Shown here in pieces: positions 23,528-51,889 of a stretch of DNA of 64,000 nt. The notes below the pieces were generated by a model that searched no databases, was not told the DNA's origin, and was given only the letters and a program-made list of their open reading frames with translations. The stretch's first letter is position 1, and the number at the start of each line of letters is the position of its first letter. Both the position numbers and the translations under genes were made by a program. The DNA comes from Verrucomicrobiia bacterium (lineage in GTDB: Bacteria; Verrucomicrobiota; Verrucomicrobiia; Opitutales; Cerasicoccaceae), in the NCBI GenBank assembly GCA_030425485.1, contig JAUIAM010000020.1, positions 1 to 64,000 of the forward strand, written 5' to 3'.

Positions 23528-24493
23528 ATGCGTCGCTGGTCTATCACCCTGTTTCGACTTTTCGGCATCCGACTGGAGGTCCATGCCTCGTTTTTGCTGT
23601 TGCTGGCGGTGGTGGTATGGTGGGGCTACGATGCCCGCGGCCAGGAAGGCATGCTGGCCGCTCTGGTCTACACAGGGCTGGTCTTTGCCTCCATCCTCCT
23701 GCATGAGTACGGACACTGCTTCGCGGCCCGGCGCTATGGGGTAAAAATCCCCCGCATCCTCATGATGCCCATCGGCGGCATGGCCCAGTTTAGCCACATC
23801 CCGCGCGAGCCTGCCCGCGAACTGATTATCACCCTGGCCGGCCCGGTGGTGAACTTCATCATCGCGGGAGTGATCTACCTCTTCATCGGCCTGCCTCCGA
23901 TGTGGAACTTCTACCAGCCCTTTGCCCTGGAGCCGCGCCAAGTGCTCATCATGCTCATGCTGTGGAATCTTGCCATGGGCCTGTTTAACCTGCTGCCGAT
24001 CTTTCCCATGGACGGAGGCCGCATCCTGCGTGCTCTGCTCGCCATCCGCTACGACTACCTGACAGCGACGACCTTTGCCGTCCATACGGGCAAAGTGCTG
24101 GCCATCGTGGGCATCTTGCTCTCGATCTTCTATCTGCAAAGCCCGCTGACCATGTTTCTGTTCGCCTTCATCATCGTCGGCGGTGAAATGGAGTTTAGGC
24201 AGGTGCGCGTCGTGGAAGCCTACGCCGGGCTCTGCATCGGTGACGTCACCCACCCTGCCAGTGTAGAGACAGTCTTTCCCCTGCCCCGCCAGACACCCGT
24301 CCTGCAGGCCACTTGGCCGCTGGAGTTTTATGCTCCGCTCTTCGAGGCTCAAGAGGACGAAACCTACCCGGTTTTCCTCGGCGAGGAGTTCATCGGAGTG
24401 GTCAAAACCCAGACCTTTGCCGATACCCTGCTCTACGCCCAAAGCCGCCGCAAGGCCTTGAAGCGAGCCAATCTCCCGCCTTGGGGGCGTTAG
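23528..24493 (+). CDS. Site-2 protease family (M50) intramembrane metalloprotease
   Basis: 321-residue polytopic protease that cuts substrates within the membrane. Zinc-binding HEYGH (in LLHEYGHCFAARRYGV, about residue 58) and the second metal motif NLLPIFPMDGGRILRALLA (about 155-170) are intact. About five or six membrane segments fill residues 15-220. The C-terminal 90 residues are soluble and do not show clear CBS repeats. It is divergent from the response-regulator gene, with 188 bases between them; a regulatory link is possible but not shown. Confidence 0.88.
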   Translation: MRRWSITLFRLFGIRLEVHASFLLLLAVVVWWGYDARGQEGMLAALVYTGLVFASILLHEYGHCFAARRYGVKIPRILMMPIGGMAQFSHIPREPARELIITLAGPVVNFIIAGVIYLFIGLPPMWNFYQPFALEPRQVLIMLMLWNLAMGLFNLLPIFPMDGGRILRALLAIRYDYLTATTFAVHTGKVLAIVGILLSIFYLQSPLTMFLFAFIIVGGEMEFRQVRVVEAYAGLCIGDVTHPASVETVFPLPRQTPVLQATWPLEFYAPLFEAQEDETYPVFLGEEFIGVVKTQTFADTLLYAQSRRKALKRANLPPWGR

Positions 24494-47034: not shown

Positions 47035-47982
47035 ATGGAAAGTAAGCTCCCCGCCTGCACGCCGCAAATCATCTTCAACATCGAGGAAGAGGTGCGCCTG
47101 AACCGCGAGGTCGCCAAGGCCAAGGGCAGCATCCAGAAAATGAAGCAGGAGCTGCTGGAGCTCAAGGCGTCCTACACCCTGAAGGAGCGCGTGGGCCTGT
47201 CTGCCGAAAGCCTCCAGCAAAAGCATACCCGCGAGCGGGAGCTGGAGCAAACCATCGAGCGAAAGATCAGCTCCATCCGCGAGCGGGCCGAGCAGTGGAA
47301 GCAAATTCAGCAGCAGACCGAACGCCTGTTGGAAAAATTCCTCAGCGACAGCGACACGCAGTTCAAGCTCAGCGCCAAGCTCAAGGTCTTCTTTCGCGAC
47401 TTGCGCAAGCGCCTCGGGGAGTTTCACCACGACATCATCGAGTACCGCAAATCACTCGGGCAGGCCCGCGCCGCCATGTGCGCCCAGTACGATCGCCAGA
47501 CCAAGCTTTTCCACCATAATGCGCTGCAACGCTTTGAGGAAGCCGCCATTCGCGGCAACCAGGTGGACGAAGCGATCAAGCTCTTTAACCGCATGGCAGA
47601 TGGCTATGCCGACCAGGTGCACCAGACTTTTCTCGAAGATGTAGCCCTGCCCCGCTTGACCAAGCTCTACGCCAAGCAAAACGTCTACACCATCCGCCAG
47701 CAGGAGATTGCCAAAGCCCATCAGCAGATCGACCAGATCATTGATAAGCTGGAGCAGCTCTACCAGGAAGAAGTCCCCATCCTCGACCAGCAGATCCAGG
47801 CAGCCGACACCGAGCACGACGAGATCACCACGCGCTACGTCGAACGCTACTGGGAACGCCTGCGCGAGTGCATCTGGGCCGACCTTCAGCGCGGCATCAG
47901 CCACATGCCCGGCAAGGGCCAGGGTAAGCTCAAGCTAAAGCCTCGCCCCGCGCAACGCGACGTCGAGCAGGCTACGGCGTAG
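47035..47982 (+). CDS. Coiled-coil protein of unknown function
   Basis: 315-residue soluble protein, mostly helical. Long heptad stretches at about 15-95 (LELKASYTLKERVG, RERELEQTIERKISSIRERA) and about 225-275 (AHQQIDQIIDKLEQLYQEEV), basic at both ends. No signal peptide and no catalytic motif. It converges on the HtrA-like gene and overlaps its end by 11 bases. Function unknown. Confidence 0.7.
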   Translation: MESKLPACTPQIIFNIEEEVRLNREVAKAKGSIQKMKQELLELKASYTLKERVGLSAESLQQKHTRERELEQTIERKISSIRERAEQWKQIQQQTERLLEKFLSDSDTQFKLSAKLKVFFRDLRKRLGEFHHDIIEYRKSLGQARAAMCAQYDRQTKLFHHNALQRFEEAAIRGNQVDEAIKLFNRMADGYADQVHQTFLEDVALPRLTKLYAKQNVYTIRQQEIAKAHQQIDQIIDKLEQLYQEEVPILDQQIQAADTEHDEITTRYVERYWERLRECIWADLQRGISHMPGKGQGKLKLKPRPAQRDVEQATA

Positions 47983-49162
47983 GCTGAACCTTGACCGCAG
48001 CTTCGCCCGTCTCATCTGCATCGGCGGGTTTGGCATCGCCCTTGGCCAGTTGCTCAGGAGTCTTAGTCGCAGCCTCATCCGTCGTTACTGAGGCGGGCGG
48101 AAAACTTTTCGCTTCTTCATCGGCAGGCGTCATCGCCTGCGCAGTAGAAGCAGCGGGCGCCTCATTGACGGAAACTTCCTCCGGGCCGGGGACGCTGGGC
48201 CCTACGGGCGGCATGGCCGTGGGCGGTGCTTCGCGGGCACCGGGCTTCAGGCTGAGCTCGACTTCCTCCTCGCCGCGCCGGATCAACACAGTGACGAACT
48301 CACCCGGGCGCTGATAGAAGGTCGCAATGCGCAGGTCGGCGTCGGTTTTGACCGGAAAGTCGCCCAGCTTGAGAATGATGTCACCGACCTGGACCCCGCC
48401 CTTGGCCGCCGGACCGTTTTCGATCAGGTCTTCCACCTCGACCCAAGGGCCATCGTTGAGGTTGGACTTCTGCCGCGTCTGAAAGCCGAAGTAGGCGTAG
48501 GTGACTTTGCCGGAAAAGAGGATGTCGTCGCGGATGCGCTGGATGGCACGCGCCGGGAGGATAAAGGATGACCCCAGCTCTGGCAGGGAAACGATAATCA
48601 TGCCCACGAGCGAGCCGTTGATGTCAAAGACGGGGGCACCGCCTTCGCCGCCCGTTGAGGGGATGTCCGAACGCAGGTAAATCGTGGGCAACACGCGGTC
48701 GCCGTAGTTGGTGTTCCAGCCCGTGACGAGCCCAAGCGACGGGCCGGGGTCTTGCCCCATCTCACAGGACAAGCCAACCAGAAACGAGCCCACGGGCGGT
48801 GTCTCGGGCGAGTCCGTAAAGCGCAGGAAGTGAAAATCCGACGGCAGGGCAAAGACCTTGATGATGGAGACATTCGTCAGCGGATCACTGCCCACATGCT
48901 CGGCGGTATAGGCAATCCCCTTGCTCTCGACCCAGATACGGTCAGCGCCGTAGGTCACATTCGTGTTGGTGAGGATGTGGCCTTCTTTGCTAATGTAGAA
49001 ACCAGTACCGATGAACAGTACGGTTTTGCCGTCCTCGGACTTATTTTCAAAGGCCGCATAGACCTTGACCACCGCTTTTTCGTTGCTGCGGTAGATGTCA
49101 ATGACGCGCTTTTGCAGCTCGCCGGGGCCGTTGTCGGCGCTCAGGCCGTGCGCACTAAGCAA
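47972..49162 (-). CDS. HtrA-like serine protease fold with PDZ domain, catalytic triad lost; N-terminus interrupted at a homopolymer
   Basis: 396 residues as read from a TTG at 49162. A trypsin-like fold (about 30-215) is followed by a PDZ domain (about 215-305) and a Pro/Ala-rich tail. The family motifs are altered at every catalytic site: LTNTNV (Asn68 for His), GSDPLTNVSIIKV (Asn97 for Asp) and GGEGGAP (Gly174 for Ser), so it is probably not a protease. The true start is probably the GTG at 49212, which opens MNPCLLFSRSLLSLVFF, a signal peptide in another frame. It reaches the body frame only if the 9-T run (49161-49169 on the minus strand) has one extra base. It follows a sigma / anti-sigma pair, suggesting a periplasmic stress-sensing role. 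Confidence 0.8.
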   Translation of the reverse strand: MLSAHGLSADNGPGELQKRVIDIYRSNEKAVVKVYAAFENKSEDGKTVLFIGTGFYISKEGHILTNTNVTYGADRIWVESKGIAYTAEHVGSDPLTNVSIIKVFALPSDFHFLRFTDSPETPPVGSFLVGLSCEMGQDPGPSLGLVTGWNTNYGDRVLPTIYLRSDIPSTGGEGGAPVFDINGSLVGMIIVSLPELGSSFILPARAIQRIRDDILFSGKVTYAYFGFQTRQKSNLNDGPWVEVEDLIENGPAAKGGVQVGDIILKLGDFPVKTDADLRIATFYQRPGEFVTVLIRRGEEEVELSLKPGAREAPPTAMPPVGPSVPGPEEVSVNEAPAASTAQAMTPADEEAKSFPPASVTTDEAATKTPEQLAKGDAKPADADETGEAAVKVQPTP

Positions 49163-49215
49163 AAAAAAACCAGAGACAACAGGCTCCGGGAAAAGAGGAG
49201 GCAGGGGTTCACAGA

Positions 49216-49773
49216 TTAGTAGATGCTGGTGCCGACAGGGGTACCGGACACGGCGGAGTTAGTGTACATGGAGCCGTCCACATAGCGGACATGCTGGCTG
49301 GTGTTGGCAGGCATCGGGCGCGTGGCTGCGACCAGGGTAACATTGCTCCCCTGGGTGGACTGGTTCTCAAACTGTCCGACGACAAAGGTGGTTTCGTGTC
49401 CGCTCTGGGGGGCGAAGTCCTCCGCCATGCCCGCCATGGGAACGGAAGGCGTGGCGCTGACCGGAGTGGCAAAAGCGTACTCCGTCACGACCGTGCTATC
49501 CCCCTGAAAGAAGCTGGGGGAATGGTCGAGGGCCATAGCAACCACGAAGGTGGCCGCAGCAGTCAAGGGCAGAGCCGGTATGAGGCGGCTGCCAAAGCTC
49601 TTGAGGAAACGTACTGGCCACGGTGCAGGCTTGGCCAGCACTTGCCAGGATTTCTGGTGGAGTTCGCGGTCAAAGCGCTCCCAGAATGCCTGATCGGGCT
49701 TTTCTGAGCGCTTGAGTTCGAGTAAATTCTCAACGGTCACGCGGGGGCGTGGTGTGGATTCCTTTTCCGGCAT
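49216..49773 (-). CDS. Probable anti-sigma factor, single-pass membrane protein
   Basis: 185 residues. A charged cytosolic N-terminus (about 1-55) is followed by one membrane helix (about 63-83, LIPALPLTAAATFVVAMAL) and a Ser/Thr/Gly-rich periplasmic part. No recognised zinc motif of the ZAS family. It starts 17 bases after the ECF sigma gene, the usual place for a cognate anti-sigma factor, and that call rests on position and topology only. It ends 3 bases before the GTG start of the HtrA-like gene. Confidence 0.6.
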   Translation of the reverse strand: MPEKESTPRPRVTVENLLELKRSEKPDQAFWERFDRELHQKSWQVLAKPAPWPVRFLKSFGSRLIPALPLTAAATFVVAMALDHSPSFFQGDSTVVTEYAFATPVSATPSVPMAGMAEDFAPQSGHETTFVVGQFENQSTQGSNVTLVAATRPMPANTSQHVRYVDGSMYTNSAVSGTPVGTSIY

Positions 49774-49790: not shown

Positions 49791-50426
49791 CTACTGTTCC
49801 AGATATTCACGTAAAGTATTTTGAAGCTGCTGCTTGGCGTAGTGAAGTCGGGAGCGGACGGTTCCTTCCGAGGTCTTGGTGATCTCGGCAATCTCCTGAT
49901 GGCTCAACCCCTCAATTTCAAAAAGCACAACAACAGTCCTATGTTTAAGAGACAACTTTTGCAGCGCCTCGTTCAATTTTTCCTGTAATTCGCGCATCAG
50001 GGCGGGCTTATCCGTCTGGGTCTTGGCCGCCAAATGCTCCAAAATGTCCGAGCTGTGCACCTCCTCGTTGATGTTCTCGAGGTTGATGAAGCGCTTCATG
50101 CGCATCTTTTTCAGGTGCGTGAGCGTGTTGTTGACTGCGATGCGGTACAGCCAGGTAAAGAAGGAGGACTTACCCCGAAAGAGGTTGATGGAGCGAAAGG
50201 CCTTGATGAAAGCTTCCTGAGTCAGGTCGTTGGCGTCTTCCCGGTTCCCGGTGAGGTTATAAATCACCCCGTAGAGGCGTTCCCGGTACTTCACGACCAG
50301 CTTGTCGTAGGCCCGCACATCGCCGCTCTGCACCTGCTTGACGATGACCATATCGGCATCCGCCTCTGCTGAACGAATCGTAGCAGAGGGAGCTAATGTC
50401 TGCGATATGGCATTAGTTTCAGGCAT
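49791..50426 (-). CDS. ECF subfamily RNA polymerase sigma factor (RpoE-like)
   Basis: 211 residues with region 2 (YDKLVVKYRERLYGVIYNLT, DANDLTQEAFIKAFRSI, FFTWLYRIAVNNTLTHLKK) and region 4 (LSLKHRTVVVLFEIEGLSHQ, EIAEITKTSEGTVRSRLHYA). A GGAGAAG ribosome-binding site precedes the ATG at 50426. It heads an operon with a probable anti-sigma protein and an inactive HtrA-like protein, an arrangement like sigmaE-RseA-MucD envelope-stress systems. I found no clear ECF -35 site of the GGAAC type upstream. Confidence 0.92.
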   Translation of the reverse strand: MPETNAISQTLAPSATIRSAEADADMVIVKQVQSGDVRAYDKLVVKYRERLYGVIYNLTGNREDANDLTQEAFIKAFRSINLFRGKSSFFTWLYRIAVNNTLTHLKKMRMKRFINLENINEEVHSSDILEHLAAKTQTDKPALMRELQEKLNEALQKLSLKHRTVVVLFEIEGLSHQEIAEITKTSEGTVRSRLHYAKQQLQNTLREYLEQ

Positions 50427-50872: not shown

Positions 50873-51889
50873 CTACCCAATGGCGAGCTTTTCGCACTGG
50901 TAGCGCACGAAGGCCAGCAGTTCGAGCAGCTTCTTGGACGGAGGCAGGTCGGCGTAGGGCGCGAGCGTTTCCTCAGCCGCCTTCAGCTCCTGCTCAAAGC
51001 TGGTGCTGACCTCGGCGATAACGGCGTAGTCCTTCATCTGCTCGACGAGGTGCTTGGGCGTCAGCTCGCCCCGGCGGATACGCGAGAGAAAGAACTTGCG
51101 CTCACCGCGAGGGAGGCGTTGCAGCAGGACGAGCACCGGCAGGGTAAACTTACCGCTGGCCAGGTCCGTGCCGAGGGTCTTGCCGATCTTGTCCTCGTCG
51201 CCGAGGTAGTCGGCCAGATCATCAAAAATCTGGTAGGCAATGCCCAGGTGGCGGCTGTACTTGCTCACCGCTTCGACGTAGGGCTTTTCGTAGCCCGCAA
51301 GCGATGCGCCCAAGCTAGCCGAGACGGCAAAGAGTTCGGCGGTCTTCAGGTCAATGACGCGGAAGTAGTCCTCCAGCGAAAAATCCGGGTTACCCCGCTC
51401 AAAGGTCTGGCGAATCTCCCCGGCGCAGACCTTGCGCGTGGAGTGCGAGACCGCGCGGCAGACTTCCACCGTGGGGAACTCAGCGGCCATCTTCAGGGCT
51501 TGCGAAAAAAGTGCGTCCCCCAGGAGCACGGCGGCAGCCGAGCCGTAACGCGCACTGACGGTGTCCGTGTTGTGGCGCAGGGTGGCGTCGTCGAGGATGT
51601 CGTCGTGGATGAGCGTAGCCAGGTGGGTCATCTCGACCACGGCAGCGGCGCGGACGAGGTCGTCGCTGACCGACCCGTCCTTCCACCCGCCAAAAAAGAC
51701 GAGCAGGGGGCGCAGGCGCTTACCCTGATTTTTCAGGCTGTAGCGCACGAGGTCGCGAATGTCGCTCTCGAACTGCTCGACCTGATTATCGAGAAAGGCA
51801 TTGAGCGCCTGGAGTTGCGGAAGCACGGGCCGGACGATGTCGTCGAAGGCCGGCGTGCGGGGCGGTTGGCTGTCTTGGGCGCTTAACAT
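50873..51889 (-). CDS. Polyprenyl diphosphate synthase (E-type isoprenyl synthase)
   Basis: Chain-elongating prenyl synthase of 338 residues that adds isopentenyl diphosphate units, probably for quinone side chains or a carotenoid/lipid precursor. Both Asp-rich motifs are present: LIHDDILDDATLRHN (about 92-107) and YQIFDDLADYLGDEDKIGKT (about 215-235). The residues before the first DDxxD that set chain length are not decisive to my eye. Monocistronic, beside a plus-strand CPBP gene. Confidence 0.9.
   Translation of the reverse strand: MLSAQDSQPPRTPAFDDIVRPVLPQLQALNAFLDNQVEQFESDIRDLVRYSLKNQGKRLRPLLVFFGGWKDGSVSDDLVRAAAVVEMTHLATLIHDDILDDATLRHNTDTVSARYGSAAAVLLGDALFSQALKMAAEFPTVEVCRAVSHSTRKVCAGEIRQTFERGNPDFSLEDYFRVIDLKTAELFAVSASLGASLAGYEKPYVEAVSKYSRHLGIAYQIFDDLADYLGDEDKIGKTLGTDLASGKFTLPVLVLLQRLPRGERKFFLSRIRRGELTPKHLVEQMKDYAVIAEVSTSFEQELKAAEETLAPYADLPPSKKLLELLAFVRYQCEKLAIG

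Follow-up and report, generated by a model that had tools for sequence, protein, structure and literature searches.

Envelope-stress signalling in proteobacteria is understood as a protease cascade, and the locus described here raises the question of what an HtrA protein stripped of its catalytic triad could do beside an ECF sigma factor. It lies in a stretch of 64,000 nucleotides from a Verrucomicrobiia bacterium (the window), and the HtrA-like protein has the following features.

47972..49162, minus strand: main frame of the pseudo-HtrA, with the end of a signal peptide, a trypsin-like pseudo-protease domain, a PDZ domain and a P/A/E-rich tail
48959..48961, minus strand: Asn68 in place of the catalytic His, by residue alignment
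48872..48874, minus strand: Asn97 in place of the catalytic Asp, by residue alignment
48641..48643, minus strand: Gly174 in place of the catalytic Ser (GEGGAP where HtrA has GNSGGP)
48245..48490, minus strand: PDZ domain, residues 225-306 (PDZ_2, 4e-10)
48482..48493, minus strand: PDZ carboxylate-binding loop YFGF, residues 224-227, by loop comparison across the class

The open reading frame is located where an earlier note on this DNA had placed it (47972-49162, minus strand). That note had described an HtrA plan and PDZ domain kept around a wholly replaced triad, and both parts of the description hold. Pfam matched Trypsin_2 (PF13365, residues 52-188, E 5.6e-14) and PDZ_2 (PF13180, residues 225-306, E 4e-10), each above its cut-off, and the best solved-structure relatives by sequence are DegP-like and MucD (HtrA) proteins, with MucD the second-best match. 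Residue-by-residue alignment to MucD/DegP-type chains puts Asn68, Asn97 and Gly174 on the His, Asp and Ser positions, whereas H, D and S are retained at the equivalent alignment columns in the scoreable other HtrA-type matches of this genome. Because the trypsin-plus-PDZ plan is present and the His-Asp-Ser triad is not, the product is, as judged from its sequence, an HtrA homologue and pseudoprotease, not an HtrA protease. In an AlphaFold structure prediction built from six close sequences, the PDZ domain is the sole part with good confidence; its nearest structural matches are HtrA PDZ domains (Z 15-16), and peptide-bound DegS and AlgW rank near the top. We claim nothing from the modelled protease half, since its pLDDT is under 50 and its fold too poor to judge.

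The earlier note had suggested looking for the same substitutions in the sigma operons of Opitutae, and they proved to be a family trait reaching far beyond that group. In the window's family (that of Cerasicoccus), the pseudo-HtrA occurs in 9 of 10 genomes, the window genome included, at 59-100% identity; one genome of this family (G004, genus g2) is without both the pseudo-HtrA and a close sigma-factor orthologue. Among 286 sampled genomes of the class, 130 have a clear family member (E 1e-65 or better), which is a lower bound because the Akkermansia-like family f9 holds diverged homologues seen by profile. In all four f9 genomes examined (L180, L174, L175 and L177), a much diverged homologue occupies the equivalent operon place; these were recognised by profile at E 8e-23 to 4e-36, and Pfam matches only the PDZ domain in the two that were scanned. 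Given this more decayed copy in an Akkermansia-like family, the question of function may bear on gut symbionts.

Neighbourhoods were fetched for 60 members from many families, and the query was located in 59 of them at first pass. Of these 59, 58 have an ECF sigma gene on the upstream side, separated from the pseudo-HtrA gene by a single small gene, and the sixtieth neighbourhood (L088) has the identical arrangement of sigma gene, small gene and pseudo-HtrA. A member from another class of the phylum also adjoins a sigma gene. As a rule the pseudo-HtrA is single-copy per genome. Among the 60 operon-linked proteins in the alignment, the column of the catalytic His holds S, N, T, A, L, G, E, D, M or Y and never His, the Asp column holds N, G, S or R and never Asp, and the Ser column is Ser in only four.

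Those four members with Ser at the Ser column are what could suggest that the protein still cuts by way of other residues. His and Asp are gone from every aligned member, however, and in the 57-row core alignment invariance is confined to columns of G, F and P and to a single PDZ Asp. A search of that alignment for an alternative active site turned up neither a conserved His or Ser nor a conserved Cys or Lys. We therefore regard residual proteolysis as highly improbable. In a maximum-likelihood tree, one branch separates 62 pseudo-HtrAs from 25 triad-intact HtrAs of the phylum with a support of 100/100, and it is present in 100% of bootstrap trees. The simplest reading of the tree is a single early loss of the triad that has probably been retained ever since. 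The idea of a decaying pseudogene was rejected, as the domain plan, the operon and the open frame are all retained over the class.

The two genes that precede the pseudo-HtrA define its setting.

49791..50426, minus strand: ECF sigma factor gene, 211 aa, the first gene of the module (PF04542, 1.6e-17; PF08281, 4.9e-15)
49216..49773, minus strand: candidate anti-sigma factor gene, 185 aa, with a cytoplasmic N-terminal motif, one predicted TM segment, a periplasmic part and the C-terminus ...VGTSIY
49219..49221, minus strand: last anti-sigma codon (Tyr), the proposed PDZ ligand; F/Y in 59/59 orthologues

The sigma protein has the ECF plan by Pfam, with regions 2 and 4 within a short protein of 211 aa, and its gene (PF04542 and PF08281) stands two genes upstream of the pseudo-HtrA, which bears out the ECF sigma setting proposed earlier. 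The window's anti-sigma candidate has no Pfam match, including none to a zinc-binding anti-sigma domain, and its predicted structure model is poor over the whole length. We nevertheless treat the middle gene as encoding a membrane anti-sigma factor, because the orthologue L070 carries zf-HC2 (PF13490), an HxxxCxxC zinc motif is present in 7 of 58 orthologues, and nearly all orthologues have one strongly hydrophobic segment, which in the window protein sits mid-protein. In two genomes of family f10 (L100 and L107), the N-terminal LLxxKRxERP motif of the anti-sigma protein is present in duplicate. Gene order and homology across the class indicate that sigma factor, membrane anti-sigma factor and pseudo-HtrA are a conserved operon. 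A shared promoter was sought upstream of the family's sigma genes and none was seen.

Two other genes adjoin this module. Upstream of the sigma gene is a polyprenyl synthase gene (window positions 50873-51889), a homologue of which is also upstream in many neighbourhoods of the class. Convergent with the pseudo-HtrA gene, and overlapping its end by 11 bases, is a gene for a coiled-coil-like protein of 315 aa with no family known (47035-47982).

The genome encodes an RseP-type M50 protease, and it also encodes genuine, triad-intact HtrAs elsewhere, outside the sigma operon. A second M50 (site-2-like) protease gene is found in the window at 23678-24079. The MucB_RseB fold (PF03888) was found neither in the genome nor in the pseudo-HtrA. 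Since the RseP-type protease is present and MucB_RseB is absent, the place of RseB appears to be free. The operon resembles RpoE-RseA-RseB (AlgU-MucA-MucB) in combining a sigma factor, a membrane anti-sigma factor and a third, presumably non-cutting, periplasmic protein, and the RseP-type protease is a further likeness; it differs in that the third protein is an HtrA pseudoprotease instead of a MucB_RseB-fold protein, and in the invariant aromatic C-terminus of its anti-sigma factor. The pseudo-HtrA may thus work like RseB without being of the RseB family.

Other HtrA proteins of sigma pathways offer partial parallels. Like DegS and AlgW, the pseudo-HtrA combines a trypsin-like domain with a single PDZ domain, which belongs to a type known to bind aromatic C-termini, and it is linked to an ECF sigma pathway. 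In contrast to them, it lacks the triad, so that no proteolysis is expected, it has a cleavable-looking signal peptide instead of a lasting N-terminal anchor, and its gene is inside the sigma operon itself. The last property is shared with MucD, an HtrA protein encoded in the sigma/anti-sigma operon algT-mucABCD, but MucD has proteolytic activity and two PDZ domains, whereas the pseudo-HtrA has lost the triad and has one.

The anti-sigma factors provide the most specific clue to what the retained PDZ domain might bind. Their last residue is Phe in 45 and Tyr in 14 of the 59 operons, and hence aromatic in every one. As controls, the sigma factors of the same operons end in F/Y in 1 of 59 cases and the pseudo-HtrAs themselves in 0 of 60. 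Entropy at the last anti-sigma position is 0.77 bits, compared with 2.7 or more at the 14 preceding positions. The PDZ carboxylate loop (GWVGV or equivalent) is retained across the class, except in four genomes of the Opitutaceae-like family f3. The PDZ domains of DegS and AlgW are known to bind aromatic C-termini, on outer-membrane proteins and MucE (PMC8545111). Given the invariant F/Y tail and the retained loop, the pseudo-HtrA PDZ domain may hold the tail of its own anti-sigma factor as a built-in mimic of outer-membrane-protein C-termini. The earlier note's suggestion of a sensor, or of a protein that binds the anti-sigma factor and leaves it uncut, agrees with both features.

Exceptions to the pairing of loop and tail point both ways. 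In the Akkermansia-like (f9) genome with a decayed PDZ loop, the anti-sigma tail is Met, and in three f32 genomes, where a sigma orthologue is present and no pseudo-HtrA is seen beside the anti-sigma gene, the tails are FSR, NQQ and VEY. On the other hand, ten f3 loci (L164-L173) are without a pseudo-HtrA and their anti-sigma factors still end in Phe (10/10); these loci have a sigma orthologue of about 55-64% identity and longer anti-sigma factors, of 268-301 aa. The four f3 genomes that have a pseudo-HtrA with an altered PDZ loop have the Phe tail nonetheless. Further, the residue at -3 of the anti-sigma factors is not the strict aromatic of a YxF motif. The Phe tails in f3 loci without a pseudo-HtrA imply that the tail has, or had, another possible reader, which weakens the docking reading, and we consider PDZ docking of the anti-sigma tail to stand at about even odds. 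A fumarase-like ORF is the next gene in 5 of the 10 f3 loci.

We hypothesize, at roughly balanced chances, that the third protein of this Verrucomicrobiota ECF sigma/anti-sigma system, the exported HtrA pseudoprotease, serves in the periplasm as a brake and sensor in the manner of RseB. The anti-sigma factor in the inner membrane would hold the sigma factor, while its aromatic C-terminus would fill the PDZ groove of the pseudo-HtrA. Without cutting, the pseudo-HtrA would shield the anti-sigma factor from the genuine site-1 protease. Misfolded outer-membrane proteins with similar aromatic tails could compete for the groove, and the freed anti-sigma factor would then be cleaved by a true HtrA and subsequently by RseP, releasing the sigma factor. 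This competition model is open to direct testing with short peptides. If correct, a system spread across the Verrucomicrobiota would have kept the HtrA shape and dropped the cutting, and sensing would be separated from proteolysis.

The f3 loci also bear on a different role, that of a general periplasmic holdase or chaperone under sigma control, with the tail being read by another PDZ protein (a genuine HtrA or RseP). HtrAs mutated in the active site, such as DegP, still act as chaperones, and the f3 anti-sigma factors keep the Phe tail without an adjacent pseudo-HtrA, as this role would allow. However, the strict class-wide linkage to sigma and anti-sigma genes, usually with one copy per genome, exceeds what a mere regulon member would need, and the tail is not conserved in the three f32 genomes without a pseudo-HtrA beside the anti-sigma gene (FSR, NQQ, VEY). 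A holdase role is rather doubtful on this evidence.

It is also conceivable, though unlikely, that the pseudo-HtrA is an allosteric partner that activates or oligomerises with a genuine HtrA and so promotes cleavage of the anti-sigma factor, as MamO does for MamE. MamO of magnetotactic bacteria is likewise an HtrA homologue that has lost catalysis and been repurposed, and this pseudoprotease is required for MamE-dependent proteolysis without a triad of its own (PMC4794232). Triad-intact HtrAs that could be such partners exist in the genome, but they are encoded outside the operon. MamO differs, moreover, in keeping His and Asp, having Thr for Ser, binding metals and lacking a sigma link, whereas the pseudo-HtrA family has lost all three triad positions across a class.

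The brake-and-sensor reading requires export of the pseudo-HtrA, and the 5' end of its gene in the window is split between two frames.

49210..49212, minus strand: likely GTG start of the pseudo-HtrA, in frame +1 relative to the main ORF, 3 bases past the anti-sigma stop
49141..49212, minus strand: short frame that encodes the signal peptide's first half (VNPCLLFSRSLLSLVFFCLVRTA) and ends at a stop beyond the T run
49161..49169, minus strand: T9 run within the hydrophobic core of the signal peptide, the proposed slippage or -1 frameshift site

This frame break makes an artefact of the TTG at 49162, the start codon implied by the coordinates of the earlier note. The true N-terminus is most likely the GTG at 49212, in the other frame, which would join the main ORF at the T9 run (49169-49161); the window's split signal peptide then consists of VNPCLLFSRSLLSLVFF joined to LLSAHGLSADNG. 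An exact T9 is found at the homologous place in the signal-peptide core in 7 of the 9 operon-bearing genomes of the window's family, out of frame in all seven. In these genomes frame +1 supplies a start codon, the N-region and the opening half of the hydrophobic core, and the main frame supplies the remaining half with the AxA-like end. In 7/7, reading the opening half in frame +1 gives a higher hydrophobicity than frame 0 would, and in 6/7 a TGA or TAG at the T run ends frame +1. A main-frame ATG upstream of the conserved core is absent from the seven, except in one species (L050); some have a TTG at or near the run, and L052 has no start codon whatever. Since two named strains, Cerasicoccus frondis NBRC 105381 and C. 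arenae KCTC 12870, are among the seven and the run lengths agree exactly, an assembly error is unlikely.

With the signal peptide divided over two frames at the T9 run, export of the pseudo-HtrA would need transcriptional slippage or -1 frameshifting. The identical protein would result whether RNA polymerase inserts one U or the ribosome shifts by -1 on U UUU UUU, and we tentatively favour slippage as the joining mode. One mark of programmed slippage is a slippery run that is conserved between several species and connects two frames, and sequence comparison shows such a run in these seven genomes. The whole 3.81 Mb genome has just five sites of T runs of nine or longer, and selection against slippage is evident at runs of nine in many bacterial genomes (PMC1088944). 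A precedent for a slippage-dependent product is mxiE, where one U inserted at a T run joins two frames (PMC1088944). The T run here would likewise join two frames into a longer product, but it is inside the signal peptide of an envelope protein and its slippage is a prediction.

In four genomes of a different family, f14 (L122, L125, L128 and L095), the signal-peptide T run of the same gene is a T10 in frame in three and a T9 out of frame in one, which may point to more than one origin of the tract. These lengths would also fit plain length variation in f14, and in this they agree with the view that the run varies as a hypermutable phase-variation (on/off) tract, or reflects a sequencing error, instead of being a site of programmed recoding. 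Random errors or switching would be expected to give a mix, whereas the seven runs in the window's family all have the exact length T9 and none is in frame, which makes this view quite unlikely. The amount of exported pseudo-HtrA in the window bacterium and its near relatives could be set by slippage at the T9 run within the signal-peptide codons. The combined proposal, that a class-wide pseudoprotease PDZ reads the outer-membrane-protein-mimicking tail of its own anti-sigma factor and is outcompeted by misfolded tails, with export gated by T9 slippage in one family, is tentative. If true, the split signal peptide would be a rare case of recoding that decides whether a sensor exits the cytoplasm.

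The kind of system described, with a sigma factor, an anti-sigma factor and a periplasmic modulator, is already known. The searchable literature, which misses most subscription papers and apparently also the large ECF reclassification papers, yielded no account of pseudo-HtrAs within ECF operons and none of such systems in Akkermansia or Verrucomicrobia. As far as that literature goes, a pseudoprotease as the modulator, a ligand-like anti-sigma tail and a split signal peptide appear undescribed.
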